DNA of 64,000 nucleotides from Nannobrachium achirus (taxonomy: Eukaryota > Chordata > Actinopteri > Myctophiformes > Myctophidae). The notes under the pieces are model-generated. The model worked only from the letters and a program-made list of their open reading frames with translations. It searched no databases and was not told where the DNA came from. The DNA lies in the NCBI GenBank assembly GCA_963921795.1, contig OY997653.1, forward strand, positions 2,197,436 to 2,261,435, read 5' to 3'. The position numbers and the translations under genes are program-made. This document shows positions 652 to 63,845 of the stretch, in pieces (positions within the stretch are counted from its first letter, which is position 1; each line of letters opens with the position of its first letter).

Positions 652-2386
652 CCCATTTATGCCTAGGATTATTGAATGCTTTAACTATTGAAAATATAGC
701 AGATATACAAGCTCACAGCGTGGCACCGAGTGCCGCGCTGCAAGCTTGTAGATCTGCTATTTTTGAAAAGTTGTGAAAATGTGTGAAAATCTCTGAATAT
801 ATGTATGTATGTACGTTTGTAACTCAAATTTTGCTTCTGGGTGGTCCCTGCAACTAAATATTTTGAGATGGGGCTCCGTGGCCAAATACATATCATTTTG
901 GGGGTCCTTCACATGAAAAAGTTGACATAGTTAGTCTCTCAAGAACAGGGGGCGTTCACACCAGGGTTATTTGGTCCGCTTAAAAGGGACCATGGTCCTC
1001 TTTCTCCTTTGGTCCGCTGGTGTGAACGTGCAAAGGGACCATGGTCCCTTTGTTTGGTCCGGACCATGGTCCTCTTGAAAAGGCAGGACTCGGTCCCCTT
1101 CCAAACGGACCATGGTCCGGTCCTCTGCTGGTGTAAACGGAGCCAGACTTTATAGAGGACCAAACTTATGTCTGATCAGCCTACTACATTCTGCATTGTG
1201 TGTTGTTCATTGAAAAACAATATGGAAAAAATAATAAACGACTACTCGTGAAGCAATTGTAACTTCGGCTACAACAGACTACACTCATCAATCTTTGTTA
1301 ATTGCAGTTGTGAAGCTGGATTAATAATTAGTTCTAAAAGCATGAATTTCTTACGGGAATCATTATTGATATGACCCGACCGCTGATATGTCTTCATGAC
1401 CTGCAGTAGGCTACACGTTAATAATTGTATCATCTCCTCTCCCTGTGAGCCGGCGCTGCGGTGACTTGTTAGCTACATGGAAACTGGTGACCCATCGTGT
1501 GCGGTGACTCCAGGGGTCGCTCTCCGAACACGGTGATCATTGTTTGTTTTGACACATACAGTCACAAATAAAAGTAAGGTCACCATCTTGTGTATAACAC
1601 AGGAGGAGGAGGCGGCGCGGCGGGCGCGCTGCGCGCACAACCTCCATCCAAACGACCACAACACAGAATAAAGTCAAACTTGGCTTTTCTTTCGAGGCAT
1701 TAGGATTTTCGCTCTCTCGCTGTTCCCTGAGGACAGGCGTGCACGAGTCAAACTCTTCACGTTGTTGCTGGGACGGCAGTATGTCCATGTCATCGGGTGT
1801 GGTGCACAAAAATAACGGATTTAAAAGCTTAGGCCTACAGCTTCTTTAAAAAAAGATATATAGGAAGCGGCTGTGATTAATAACACAAAATTAATTGGAA
1901 TAGGCAGTGAAGCAATTTTCCATAGGAATAGCCTATTCTGTCAATAGATCAACAGCCGACTGTATGACCACGTGTCAGTTGTTTACATATTTGGTTCTTT
2001 TAACAAAAGTCCCGTGTGAACGCTAACCGGACCAAATTCAAAATGCAACAATGTAAACATTTGGTCCCTGATCCGGACCTTTTAAGCGGACTTTGGGTGA
2101 GAACGCCCCCTAACTGAGCTCCATGTAAGTGAAAAGGACCTTTTCTTTCACGATGGCTATAGCCACGTTGCTGACATAGAAACACAGGTTTTTCAAAAAA
2201 GCCTTAGAAGGATTCAAAAGACACATAGAATCGGGTAAAAATTCAAATTTTCAAGATTTTTTAAAAATAGCAGATGTACAAGCTCGCAGCGCGGCACTCG
2301 GTGCCGCGCTGTGAGCTTGTATATCTGCTATTTTTCAATAGTTAAAGCATAAAATAATGATACATAATAATGTGTACCCGTTCTGA
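652..2386 (+). mobile_element. family A TTAA-flanked MITE, split by a nested element
   Basis: Starts TTAA|CCCATTTATGCCTAG and ends CCCGTTCTGA|TTAA, with two internal hairpins (694-764 and 2264-2336). The consensus element is about 560 bp; here 948-2110 is an insertion. The last bases (AATGGG) have been lost. CCC...GGG ends next to TTAA are typical of piggyBac-like non-autonomous elements. Confidence 0.75.
948..2110. mobile_element. 1.16 kb TIR element nested in family A copy
   Basis: Ends are inverted: GGGGGCGTTCACACCAG at the left, and GGGGGCGTTCTCACCCAAAG on the complementary strand at the right, followed on both sides by TTTGGTCC/GTCCGCTTAAAAGG-type sequence. The family A consensus resumes on each side, though a few bases at the junction are missing. 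No transposase frame is visible, so it is non-autonomous; superfamily not determined. Confidence 0.65.
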
Positions 2387-2415
2387 TTAATAAAGGGTAT
2401 TTTAAAGGTTAAAAG

Positions 2416-2488
2416 TCTCTCTCTCTCTCTCTCTCACTCTCTCTCTCTCTCTCTCTCTCTCTCTCTCTCTCTCTCTCTCTCTCTCTCT
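2416..2488. repeat. (CT)n microsatellite
   Basis: Nearly pure CT dinucleotide tract with one CA interruption. Confidence 0.97.
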
Positions 2489-2521
2489 CACACACAAACA
2501 GACACACTCTGAACATTTCTT

Positions 2522-2984
2522 CATCCATCCATCCATCTTCAATCGCTTATCCGGAATCGGGTCGCGGGGGTAACAGTTCCAACTGAGACTTCCAGATTTC
2601 CTTATCCTGAGCAACTTCCTCCACTCCCTCAGGGAGTATACCGAGGCGTTCCCAGGCCAGTTTGGAGATATAATCCTTCCATCTGGTCTTAGGTCTGCCA
2701 TGGGGTCTCCTCCCAGTGGGACGTGCATTGAGGACCTTCCTAGGAAGGCGCTCAGGGGGCATCCGTACTACATGCCCGAACCACCTAAGCTGACTCCTTT
2801 CCAAGTGTAGGAGCAGCGGTTCTACTCCAAGTCTCTCTCGGGTGACTGAACTTCTCACCCTATCTCTAAGGGAGATACCAGCCACCCTTCTGAGAAAACT
2901 CATTTCGGCTGCTTGTACCAGAGACCTTATACTTTCGGTCATGACCCACACTTCATGAACCAAACTCTTAAACCAAACTCTTGG
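2522..2984 (-). mobile_element. 5'-truncated LINE, C-terminal end of the polymerase ORF
   Basis: Minus-strand frame 2963-2547 encodes AEMSFLRRVAGISLRDRVRS, then LGVEPLLLHLERSQLRWFGH and RPHGRPKTRWKDYISKLAWE, ending PPRPDSG. This is the well-known post-reverse-transcriptase end of a fish non-LTR retrotransposon, with a (GGAT)n-type tail at 2522-2535. A 12-bp direct repeat TGAACATTTCTT (2510-2521 and 2985-2996) flanks it as the target duplication. The clade was not assigned. Confidence 0.88.
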
Positions 2985-3020
2985 TGAACATTTCTTGTCA
3001 TGTCTAAATCTCTCCTTCAG

Positions 3021-3208
3021 TGTGGTTACACCTTCGTGGCAGAGATGAAGACACCTGAAGCTCCTCTGGTTGGTGCCAAGTGGAGACTGCGTCTGATTGG
3101 TTCAAGGGAACCGCTTCCAGAATTGGTCCGTGAGACTCCAGTCAACAACTTCACCGTGAAGGAGTTCAGGGATTACTACGTTCCTAACAACACAAACATC
3201 ATATGTCG
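3021..3208 (+). CDS. adgb: adgb exon a (beta-rich domain, first half)
   Basis: 188 bp exon. The acceptor is CTCTCCTTCAG before 3021 and the donor is CG|GTAAGA after 3208. It encodes CGYTFVAEMKTPEAP, then WRLRLIGSREPLPELVRE and ends in YYVPNNTNIIC, leaving phase 2. The frame closes with a stop right after the donor, which supports the exon end. It resembles the beta-sandwich region that follows the globin part in androglobins. A LINE fragment ends only 36 bp upstream, so the branch point and pyrimidine tract are squeezed into the target duplication and a few bases after it. Confidence 0.85.
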
Positions 3209-61594: not shown

Positions 61595-61887
61595 GTTTTA
61601 CCCCCCTGTTGGGACAGTGTAATAACATTCACCAATCACAGGGAATAATGAAACTGTTTGAATTACAGGCAGAGACTACAGATTGGGAAGACTCCATCGT
61701 AAAAAAAAAAAGACTTTCAGTCTCTGGGGAAATCGGGTCTCATTTACTTAAGTATCCTTTTTCAATCAGTGTGCCTTTGAGCTGAGTGTCATCCAGTTAT
61801 TATATTTCAAGATTCAAGATGTTATTTTTACCTCATGTATGCAAGGTTTGTGTTCTTCGGCATTGTAGCAGCCAAGATAACACAAAA

Positions 61888-62290
61888 TAAATAAAGCTGC
61901 AAGCAGCGATAAAGTGGCCAAGCCTGGAAAAAGTAGGAAAGCAAAAAAGCTGCAAGGGGAAAAAAGCAGGAAAAGCAAGAAAAGTGGGAAAAGAAATCAA
62001 AGAAAATCTATAAGCAGTGTTCTTCCGAGAACAGGCCTTCGGCAGGTCAGGTAGTTTTTTTTGGCCTGCTGGTGGCGCTATAATAGGCCAAAGGGAAAAG
62101 GGTGCCACGGGTTCTTGGGCCTTTCACGGCAATCAGACGCTGCATTCGGGATTTGATGCATTTTGTTCCACGGTCAAGCCAGGACAGAAAAAGTGGCATA
62201 ATAATAATAATAATGGAAACACCAATATCAATGAGTGGCCTCAGCCACTTTGTGACTTGGCCACTAATTAAGGATATTAGAGAATAAGGA
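61888..62290. mobile_element. GCTGCAAGCAGCG / GGTGGCGCTA repeat
   Basis: AAAGCTGCAAGCAGCGATAA...CTGGTGGCGCTATAATAGGC...TTTGATGCATTTTGTTCC. A known-looking fish repeat; class not assigned. (AAT)n at 62201-62214. Confidence 0.55.
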
Positions 62291-62615
62291 TAATGTGAAG
62301 AAATAGAAATAGCAAAGTATGTACATTAGCCATGGCACACCTTGTGTTGCTTGAAGGTGCTATGTACATTGGTACTTCTAAAAATATCCATATACTGTAC
62401 GTATGTATGTATGTACGCGCTGAGCAGGTGTGTGTGGGTGGTGTGTGTTTTAAGTGTTGTGGGAGGTGTGTGAGAGCCTGAGGGGGTATTGTGTGTGTGC
62501 GGCTGTGCGCGTGTGTGTGGACACAACAGGCCTATCGTGACAGTTTTTAAATGGTTGTGGGTTTTCAAATGCTTTCCCATTTGGGGAAGTTGAGGAAAGT
62601 AGCCTAATGCCAGTG

Positions 62616-63240
62616 TTCACTTACAGTATACTAGATGTAATCACTTACAGTATACTAGATGTAATCACTTACAGTATACTAGATGTAATCACTTACAGTA
62701 TACTAGATGTAATCACTTGCAGTATACTAGATGTAATCACTTACAGTATACTAGATGTAATCACTTACAGTATACTAGATGTAATCACTTGCAGTATACT
62801 AGATGTAATCACTTACAGTATACTAGATGTAATCACTTACAGTATACTAGATGTAATCACTTGCAGTATACTAGATGTAATCACTTGCAGTATACTAGAT
62901 GTAATCACTTGCAGTATACTAGATGTAATCACTTACAGTATACTAGATGTAATCACTTGCAGTATACTAGATGTAATCACTTACAGTATACTAGATGTAA
63001 TCACTTACAGTATACTAGATGTAATCACTTACAGTATACTAGATGTAATCACTTACAGTATACTAGATGTAATCACTTGCAGTATACTAGATGTAATCAC
63101 TTACAGTATACTAGATGTAATCACTTACAGTATACTAGATGTAATCACTTGCAGTATACTAGATGTACACTTGCAGTATACTAGATGTACACTTGCAGTA
63201 TACTAGATGTACACTTGCAGTATACTAGATGTAATCACTT
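62616..63240. repeat. 24-bp satellite (about 26 units)
   Basis: Unit AGTATACTAGATGTAATCAC plus TTAC or TTGC. The last four units or so are 22 bp (lacking AT). As with the other satellite, the 24-bp period makes long artificial ORFs. Confidence 0.98.
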
Positions 63241-63274
63241 ACAGTATAGGCCTACTATATGTAATCATTTACAG

Positions 63275-63845
63275 CAGGGGTTTTCAAAGTGGGTGACGGG
63301 GCACCCTGGGGTGCCGTGACGGCAGTCCAGGGGTGCCGTGAGATAATTTGATAATTTTTGGATTTTATTTGGACACTTGACACTTGGAATATATTTAGTA
63401 TCATTTTAAACTTGAAGTACAAAGTTATTTTCAGTCAGTTCTAACCAAAATGGCTGTTATCTCAACGTTTTCCTCGCAACATAATCACTAAAATATCGTC
63501 ACTATCAGGCAGAAACCTCGTATCTCCAAGTTTCAAATGTGTACGTCTTTTGGTAAAGTAAAGCCCTGCTTCATCATACAAGACTGTCACACAAAACTAG
63601 TGAAAACAGACGATCTACATGCACACACGTTGTGTGCTTGTAGATCTGCTGTTTTCACTAGTTTAGTACATTTTATGGATGATAAATACAAAACGGTTTT
63701 GGACATACAAGGTTTCCACCCGACAACGATATATATAGATATGCTATAAATAAGGTTGTGGGAGTGAAAATTATAATGTAGGGGTGCCTCGGATTAAAAA
63801 AATATTTATGTGGTGCCCTGAGACAAAAAAGTTTGGGAACCCCTG
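63275..63845. mobile_element. hAT-like element with B module, complete, in the satellite edge
   Basis: 571 bp, CAGGGGTTTTCAAAGTGGG...AAGTTTGGGAACCCCTG. Perfect duplication ATTTACAG (63267-63274, 63846-63853), itself part of the satellite unit. Hairpin 63601-63655. Confidence 0.94.

Follow-up and report, generated by a model that had tools for sequence, protein, structure and literature searches.

A few described systems join a conserved or self-pairing module to a miniature inverted-repeat transposable element (MITE). In the excerpt of PMC6887750, MER6 is presented as a composite MITE that holds the V highly conserved domain of short interspersed elements (SINEs); that of PMC12628747 describes Angel, a zebrafish MITE in which a single strand pairs with itself and for which hairpin-based amplification has been proposed. 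Template switching has been reported, again in excerpted text, to homogenise the arms of inverted repeats (PMC8604942) and to form perfect stems in one event (PMC8794818). The subject here is a palindromic hairpin that recurs in 64,000 bases (42.5% GC) of the genome of the fish Nannobrachium achirus (Myctophidae; assembly GCA_963921795.1, contig OY997653.1, positions 2,197,436 to 2,261,435, forward strand), a stretch referred to below as the window and numbered from its first base. Its repeat types and exon-like stretches would fit a ray-finned fish. On balance we consider it probable, with moderate assurance, that the hairpin is one old palindromic segment that non-autonomous DNA transposons (MITEs) carry along as a passenger, by nesting, and that its arms were rebuilt by template switching at the birth of each family.

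The likeness to MER6 lies in a conserved internal module that enters an unrelated element class by nesting, after which the composite amplifies; set against the excerpt of PMC6887750, the present module differs in being a palindrome of about 75 bp, in having at least four hosts within one window and in having arms that change in concert. Angel is likewise a fish MITE with a self-pairing strand, but the hairpin is here a module in several element types, and the two are likened by description only (PMC12628747, excerpt). Concerted arm change and perfect stems made in one event are the features shared with template-switch homogenised inverted repeats, which the excerpted reports describe for yeast genes and RNA genes (PMC8604942, PMC8794818), whereas here the process would have acted across transposon families. 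No publication on the hairpin was seen among the literature matches listed; that search was incomplete, so no claim is made that the hairpin is unpublished.

Recurrence of the hairpin in non-homologous hosts

The palindrome has arms of about 36 bp (GAAAATAGC-M-GATCTACAAGCTCACAACG..) and a GC-rich tip. Matches to its arm, scored as an 18-nt core with at most four mismatches to any of five variants, number 100 in the window (49 on the forward and 51 on the reverse strand), against 2, 0, 1, 2 and 1 on one strand each of five first-order Markov shuffles. Both arms are present at 36 loci, where opposed neighbouring arms lie no more than 65 bp apart. A hand list of 62 entries corresponds to about 61 hairpin loci, since a nested insertion splits one hairpin into two entries; the recurrence put at about fifty in the initial annotation is therefore real, and the tips and arms quoted there are found in the window. 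By type the loci are 26 A-type, 13 B', 4 D, 3 FK, 3 T2, 2 other TTAA, 3 E and 7 single contexts, an assignment made by hand on this one 64-kb window. Strong fold-backs of any sequence number 46, and the hairpin accounts for 30 of them (29 of the 30 hairpin flags are true; the flag at 53567 is false, and 44745 is the hairpin though unflagged). Folded as DNA, six representative hairpins reach -26 to -48 kcal/mol (z -8.6 to -18.2). An origin by chance or from simple repeats was ruled out by shuffles, both of the arm-core counts and of the between-family co-variation described below. Among viral contigs a 17-mer pattern matched five, four of which share their surrounding sequence and none of which has a second arm, and a longer pattern matched none.

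At least four of the hosts share a homologous core and are not homologous to each other: the TTAA elements, B' with its 4-bp duplication, D and FK. Comparison of the outward 75-bp flanks covered 595 pairs, of which 19 exceeded the score threshold and were checked against 400 shuffles. These 19 fall within families, within the TTAA group (together with E and 53262), between B' and the loose copy at 51982, between 15720 and 53262, and between FK and 37402 (p 0.01). None of the tested pairs (19 of 595) forms a link between any two of TTAA, B', D and FK, so the core is common to these hosts but the flanks are not; core homology across hosts stops near GAAAATAGC...GCTATTTTC. The presence of the module in unrelated shells, as first proposed, is thus borne out, as are the differing termini and duplications (TTAA for A and T2, 8 bp in eight of nine hAT-like shells, and 4 bp in three stand-alone B' copies).

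A-type and T2 elements are TTAA elements, the A-type with one hairpin near each end. TTAA duplications flank 33080-33647, 8241-8386 and 35418-35572, and by direct reading also 7372-7931. We take these elements to be piggyBac-like from their terminal signature (TTAA duplication, TTAACC.. termini), that is, from ends and duplications only; TTAA targets are also used by Kolobok-type elements. A-type TTAA elements lie at 648-2386 (+; hairpins 692-764 and 2263-2335, with another repeat interrupting at 949-2109) and 5064-5829 (-; hairpins 5122-5194 and 5712-5784). Further A-type elements are found at 7372-7931 (+; TTAA at 7368-7371 and 7932-7935; hairpins 7411-7483 and, with its tip deleted, 7836-7876), 8741-9314 (-; hairpins 8804-8872 and 9215-9265), 20855-21386 (-; hairpin 20912-20984 and a broken one at 21324), 33080-33647 (+; TTAA on both sides; hairpins 33121-33193 and 33517-33589) and 43213-43789 (+; hairpin 43261-43333).

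B' elements start with CGTC(A/G)(C/T)TGTCGGG.. and occur alone or in shells. Three stand-alone copies have 4-bp duplications at the same element ends (CG..CG): 33900-34170 (-; ATGT; hairpin 34007-34093), 38216-38445 (+; ATTT; hairpin 38285-38340) and 51095-51351 (-; ATAT; hairpin 51196-51276). The 4-bp duplication is read from the agreement of these three copies in their ends, because a 4-bp match over the allowed offsets is easily had by chance; the duplication search missed the true ends in the rows for B' in hAT-B at 11468, for 41982 and 17396, and for A at 7373. Another B' element (41976-42226, +; hairpin 42042-42130, DNA fold z -17.5) breaks a 24-bp tandem array (41495-43040), which records its insertion site.

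The remaining shells are presumably hAT-like by their terminal signature (8-bp duplications, CAG..-type termini), an assignment again from ends and duplications only. Perfect 8-bp duplications, each the best over a set of allowed offsets, were found for eight of the nine hAT-like shells tried, the ninth (hAT-B at 11360) reaching 5/8. D has a hAT-like copy at 31161-32729 (+; duplication GACGACAC, 8/8) that has received nested insertions, including one within its hairpin, and further copies at 37643-37910 (+; hairpin 37779-37842) and 55153-55600 (+; hairpin 55458-55529). The insertion in the D hairpin stem, 32116-32623, is itself hAT-like with a near-perfect duplication (CCGATGCG/CCGATGTG). FK is represented by a hAT-like element at 30064-30503 (+; duplication CTTTACAC, 8/8; hairpin 30185-30265) and by a copy nested in another repeat at 44605-44860 (+; hairpin 44730-44802), the outer ends of which were placed by eye. 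The elements are dispersed, measure about 145 to 600 bp and carry 8-bp, 4-bp or TTAA duplications, as MITEs do; the D element at 31161-32729 is longer because of its nested insertions. In their 8-bp duplications and CAG..-type termini, or TTAA and TTAACC.. termini, they resemble hAT-like and piggyBac-like elements, but no transposase was found in the window, and a Pfam scan of seven of its open frames gave nothing above the cut-off.

At least three repeat families of the window are without the hairpin (17396/24283, 16828/18844 and 13717/34693), and the first of these, at 17396-17773 and 24283-24655, has B'-like ends (CTGTCGGGCCGAAACC..) and appears as a hairpin-less relative. A second palindrome (GCTAAGGTATGGCAACATGACTGG..) occurs at 17229-17312, 18208-18281 and 32146-32190, all three in one hAT-like repeat family (CAGGGGCGTCAATTGGG..). 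Two 3' ends that we take to be LINE-like (long interspersed element), at 26477-26851 and 2522-2896, are 97% identical over 375 bp; the former lies directly beside a hairpin and has an apparent duplication, ATCAGCCTT. Also present are a long inverted repeat at 49509-49708 (88-nt arms, 98% complementary) in a GC-rich block, and inverted copies (93%) at 53373-53930 and 54565-55138 of a block rich in CATAATGTAATAA repeats.

Hairpin-bearing elements nested in shells

Four further hAT-like shells contain all or part of an element that bears the hairpin. The first is found twice, at 8130-8533 (+; duplication GTTTATTG, 8/8), where it contains the T2 TTAA element 8241-8386 with hairpin 8279-8343, and at 35254-35641 (-; CACTAGAA, 8/8), where it contains T2 at 35418-35572; the position and orientation of T2 within the shell are identical at the two sites, and the 8-bp duplications differ. 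The shell hAT-B carries B' at 22700-23181 (+; CTGTAGGG, 8/8; hairpin 22879-22944), 63275-63845 (-; ATTTACAG, 8/8; hairpin 63594-63664) and 11360-11883 (+; no clear duplication, best 5/8; hairpin 11543-11631), and a B' half-hairpin (28348-28395) at 27939-28591 (-), and hAT-B and B' join at identical bases in the junctions compared, five on the left and four on the right. The other two shells are at 21702-22199 (+; TCAGCATG, 8/8), with a fragment of A and hairpins at 21776-21825 and 22046-22118, and at 36593-36895 (+; CACAAGAG, 8/8), with half a B' that begins near the hairpin tip. One inner site combined with unlike outer duplications, as for the T2 shells (GTTTATTG, CACTAGAA) and for hAT-B (CTGTAGGG, ATTTACAG), is the mark of a composite MITE, and the common T2 site in two shells, together with the common hAT-B/B' joints, means that the composites transpose as units. 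The module is present in the shells as originally stated, but several of them carry it by way of another hairpin-bearing element, complete or partial.

Near these composites, a second 24-bp tandem array (62614-63274) adjoins a hAT-B element, and a perfect palindrome with 49-bp arms (28193-28297) is inserted in the B' element of the shell at 27939-28591; the latter resembles Rfam mir-2574 at 56.8 bits, the gathering score being 90.

For signs of insertion by the hairpin alone, the 25 bp flanking each of the 36 two-armed hairpins were searched for direct repeats, with 1,800 shuffles for comparison. One E hairpin (29736-29814, in the E repeat 29537-29929, +, which has a TTAACCACTTCAGCCC-type end on one side) is surrounded by an 11-bp direct repeat, TCAAATGTATA; the longest in any shuffle was 9 bp, which leaves one candidate for a bare insertion. 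In the other 35 the direct repeat is at most 7 bp. Repeats of 6 bp are found at 16 of the 36, against 11% in shuffles, and most of these are inherited A flanks (TTGAAA/TTTCAA or GTGAAA/TTTCAC). A second two-armed E copy (45407-45785, -; hairpin 45477-45559) is without the 11-bp repeat, and no matching empty site was seen in the window. Within 29700-29860 the TCAAATGTATA repeat may be an insertion scar of a hairpin unit, or may be one portion of a set of short repeats that belongs to the E flank; at 39480-39514 two similar 10-mers stand in tandem.

Co-variation and conservation of the arms

Between families the arms change together. In 16 of the more complete hairpins, picked by hand from eight hosts, 93.8% of 536 cells are paired, and two-sided changes occur in 15 of 36 pairs (43 cells), a figure that no shuffle of 500 reached; in slid controls there were 0-6 such pairs. 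Within families no significant covariation was detected: among 12 A rows (11 distinct) one pair has a two-sided change, as do 125 of 500 shuffles, and among eight B' rows there are two such pairs (53 of 500 shuffles). The earlier statement that pairing was kept while sequence changed therefore holds between families and goes undetected within A and B'.

Arm distances in the same 16 hairpins point the same way. The left and right arms of a hairpin differ by 0.074, arms within a family by 0.066 on the same side and 0.074 on opposite sides, and arms of different families by 0.203 and 0.200, respectively. Since same-side and opposite-side distances are alike, left arms have no left-specific history, and the arms of a family have been renewed together. 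Between the left and right consensus arms of each host there are 1 to 3 differences over 36 positions, or over fewer where arms are cut; the single copy at 45898 has 8. The initial annotation had proposed that agreement of core and shell trees, with no compensatory changes, would reduce the pattern to shared ancestry of the shells; the cores do cluster by host (0.07 within families, 0.20 between them), yet compensated changes between families exist. The tips vary from family to family, and the basal two thirds of each arm are largely kept.

Family-specific pairing outside the core had also been described. Perfect pairing beyond the GAAAA/TTTTC base extends for 5-9 bp in all but one of the seven B' copies (1 bp in the copy at 34007), 6 bp in both FK copies, 6 and 4 bp in E, 5 bp in 37402 and 2 bp in T2, and only 0-1 bp in A, D (where the row for 55458 rests on a wrong right anchor) and 45898. 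Such pairing is thus a feature of B', FK, E and 37402, whose 12 rows include 11 with runs of 4-9 bp; it is slight in T2 and is not seen in A, D and 45898.

Two A-type copies are consistent with local copying of one arm from the other. In the element at 7368 a T-to-C change is seen in three of the four arms, namely the left hairpin's two and the right hairpin's outer one, and the hairpin at 43261, alone among the 12 complete A hairpins, is paired at both A-family mispairs, a likely correction. Inversion of the loop, an optional mark of template switching, is not seen in the 12 A and five B' rows in which the loop is retained; loop orientation in the host is fixed there. Arm position 11 of B' (34007-34093, 42042-42130 and 11543-11631) is A, C or T and differs between arms in a CpG context, and may be a mutation hotspot; an explanation of this flip by hairpin inversion was dropped, as loops do not flip and the context is CpG.

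Subfamily-level changes are scarce in the hairpin. Non-CpG alignment columns with a variant in two or more copies were counted in A and B', with 10-11 related copies per family and uncorrected p values. In A they make up 1 of 120 hairpin columns and 33 of the 410 others (Fisher p 0.0024; none of 595 circular shifts gave so low a count), and in B' 0 of 58 and 17 of 157 (p 0.0077; 11 of 269 shifts), or 1 of 60 and 15 of 155 when the badly aligned row at 22803 is left out (p 0.046; 12 of 269 shifts). Singletons are not reduced in the hairpin of A (p 0.21) and weakly so in that of B' (p 0.04; 0.28 without the same row). The CpG sites of the B' hairpin are not conserved (eight shared changes in 60 cells). 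The depletion is suggestive of selection on source elements or of conversion among abundant cores, either of which would be expected to produce it, and leaves room for a function that the hairpin may have in element propagation. Among internal deletions of 8 bp or more, a hairpin centre is covered by six of the 22 in A and by four of the nine in B'. In B' no column outside the hairpin equals the deletion count at the centre; in A some do.

Origin of the palindrome and competing explanations

In the sequence of events that we propose, a hairpin-bearing element would come to sit inside another and the composite would then move by its outer ends, as documented for two shells and, once or in part, for two more; because the outer ends move the composite, an unrelated shell would come to carry the hairpin. 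Truncation and divergence may subsequently wipe out the ends of the inner element, leaving a hairpin without visible carrier, as in D and FK. At the origin of a family, template switching on the hairpin would remake one arm with the other as template, as the pattern of arm differences suggests; such an event would give a near-perfect palindrome at once, with both arms changed simultaneously, and the pairing might extend into new flanks, in keeping with the outer stems formed by the unlike flanks of B', FK, E and 37402. After insertion, copies would decay without detectable compensation and some would drop the tip, which is what A and B' display. Concerted arm change, a mark of template switching, is found between families and not within A or B'.

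Several observations weigh against this account. D and FK retain no remnant of a carrier's ends, and nesting is presumed for them. Arm copying would have to occur mainly at or before family birth, because the two-sided changes within families are limited to 7411 in A and two pairs in B', and 43261 in A shows a likely correction. Extended outer pairing is missing from A and D, and the deletion counts at the two A hairpin centres (2 and 4) do not exceed the maximum elsewhere (4). The direct repeat at 29736 could mark an insertion of the hairpin itself, and plain passenger status does not predict the depletion of subfamily-level changes in the hairpins of A and B'.

That depletion is an argument for a less likely but serious alternative, in which the hairpin is a cis-acting propagation aid for several transposition systems, its sequence and pairing being kept in active source elements (for excision, replication or escape from silencing) and residents decaying freely. 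Such a division would agree with the little reduced singletons, with co-variation that is seen between families and not measurable within them, and with basal arms that are kept as the tips change. The test covers two families only, however, with related rows; the B' result weakens without one badly aligned row, four of the ten B' rows belong to the single shell family hAT-B, the B' hairpin is not conserved at its CpG sites, the hairpin-less repeat families of the window do without it, and gene conversion among abundant cores could mimic the depletion. Rather unlikely, too, is the wider proposal of a transposase-independent palindromic cassette that aids several DNA transposon superfamilies, with TTAA, 4-bp and hAT sources keeping sequence and pairing. 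It seems improbable that the palindrome itself is a tiny mobile element inserting into others. Its presence in at least four non-homologous hosts, with homology stopping near GAAAATAGC...GCTATTTTC, and the 11-bp repeat at one of 36 two-armed hairpins would agree with this, but the other 35 and the second E copy are without such a repeat, the excess of 6-bp repeats is mostly inherited, no stand-alone copy was recognised in the window, and loop orientation is fixed within A and B'. Entry of the palindrome on its own, as first envisaged, has thus found little support, because orientation in the host is fixed (12 A and five B' rows) and four shells have a larger hairpin-bearing element, or part of one, as the carrier; the candidate at 29736 is what is left of it.

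Still less probable is a service to the host at the individual loci, as Dicer substrates or small RNA genes, with pairing selected there. The very stable DNA folds would suit it, but no Rfam family was matched at gathering score, and so no curated microRNA family; all 54 matches at relaxed threshold fall below gathering score, some touching the hairpin and several touching other palindromes or simple repeats. Tips are deleted, and the resident A and B' copies gave neither significant covariation nor detectable pairing constraint, so the Dicer-like substrate first suggested finds no support in these tests; a cruciform or protein-binding function, suggested alongside it, may yet apply. We give the lowest probability to descent of all hosts from one transposon with diverged termini. 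By flank comparison the TTAA hosts do group together, but no tested flank match links them, B', D and FK with one another, and duplications as unlike as TTAA, 4 bp and 8 bp imply different transposases.

Stem co-variation is often taken as proof of selection on RNA. Here it is seen between families of small transposons and is undetected within two of them, which raises the testable question of whether arm copying or selection on active elements keeps palindromes paired. If selection on source elements were the true cause, the hairpin would be a module able to function with different types of transposase, and such a shared propagation module would be comparable to the conserved domains common to unrelated SINEs.

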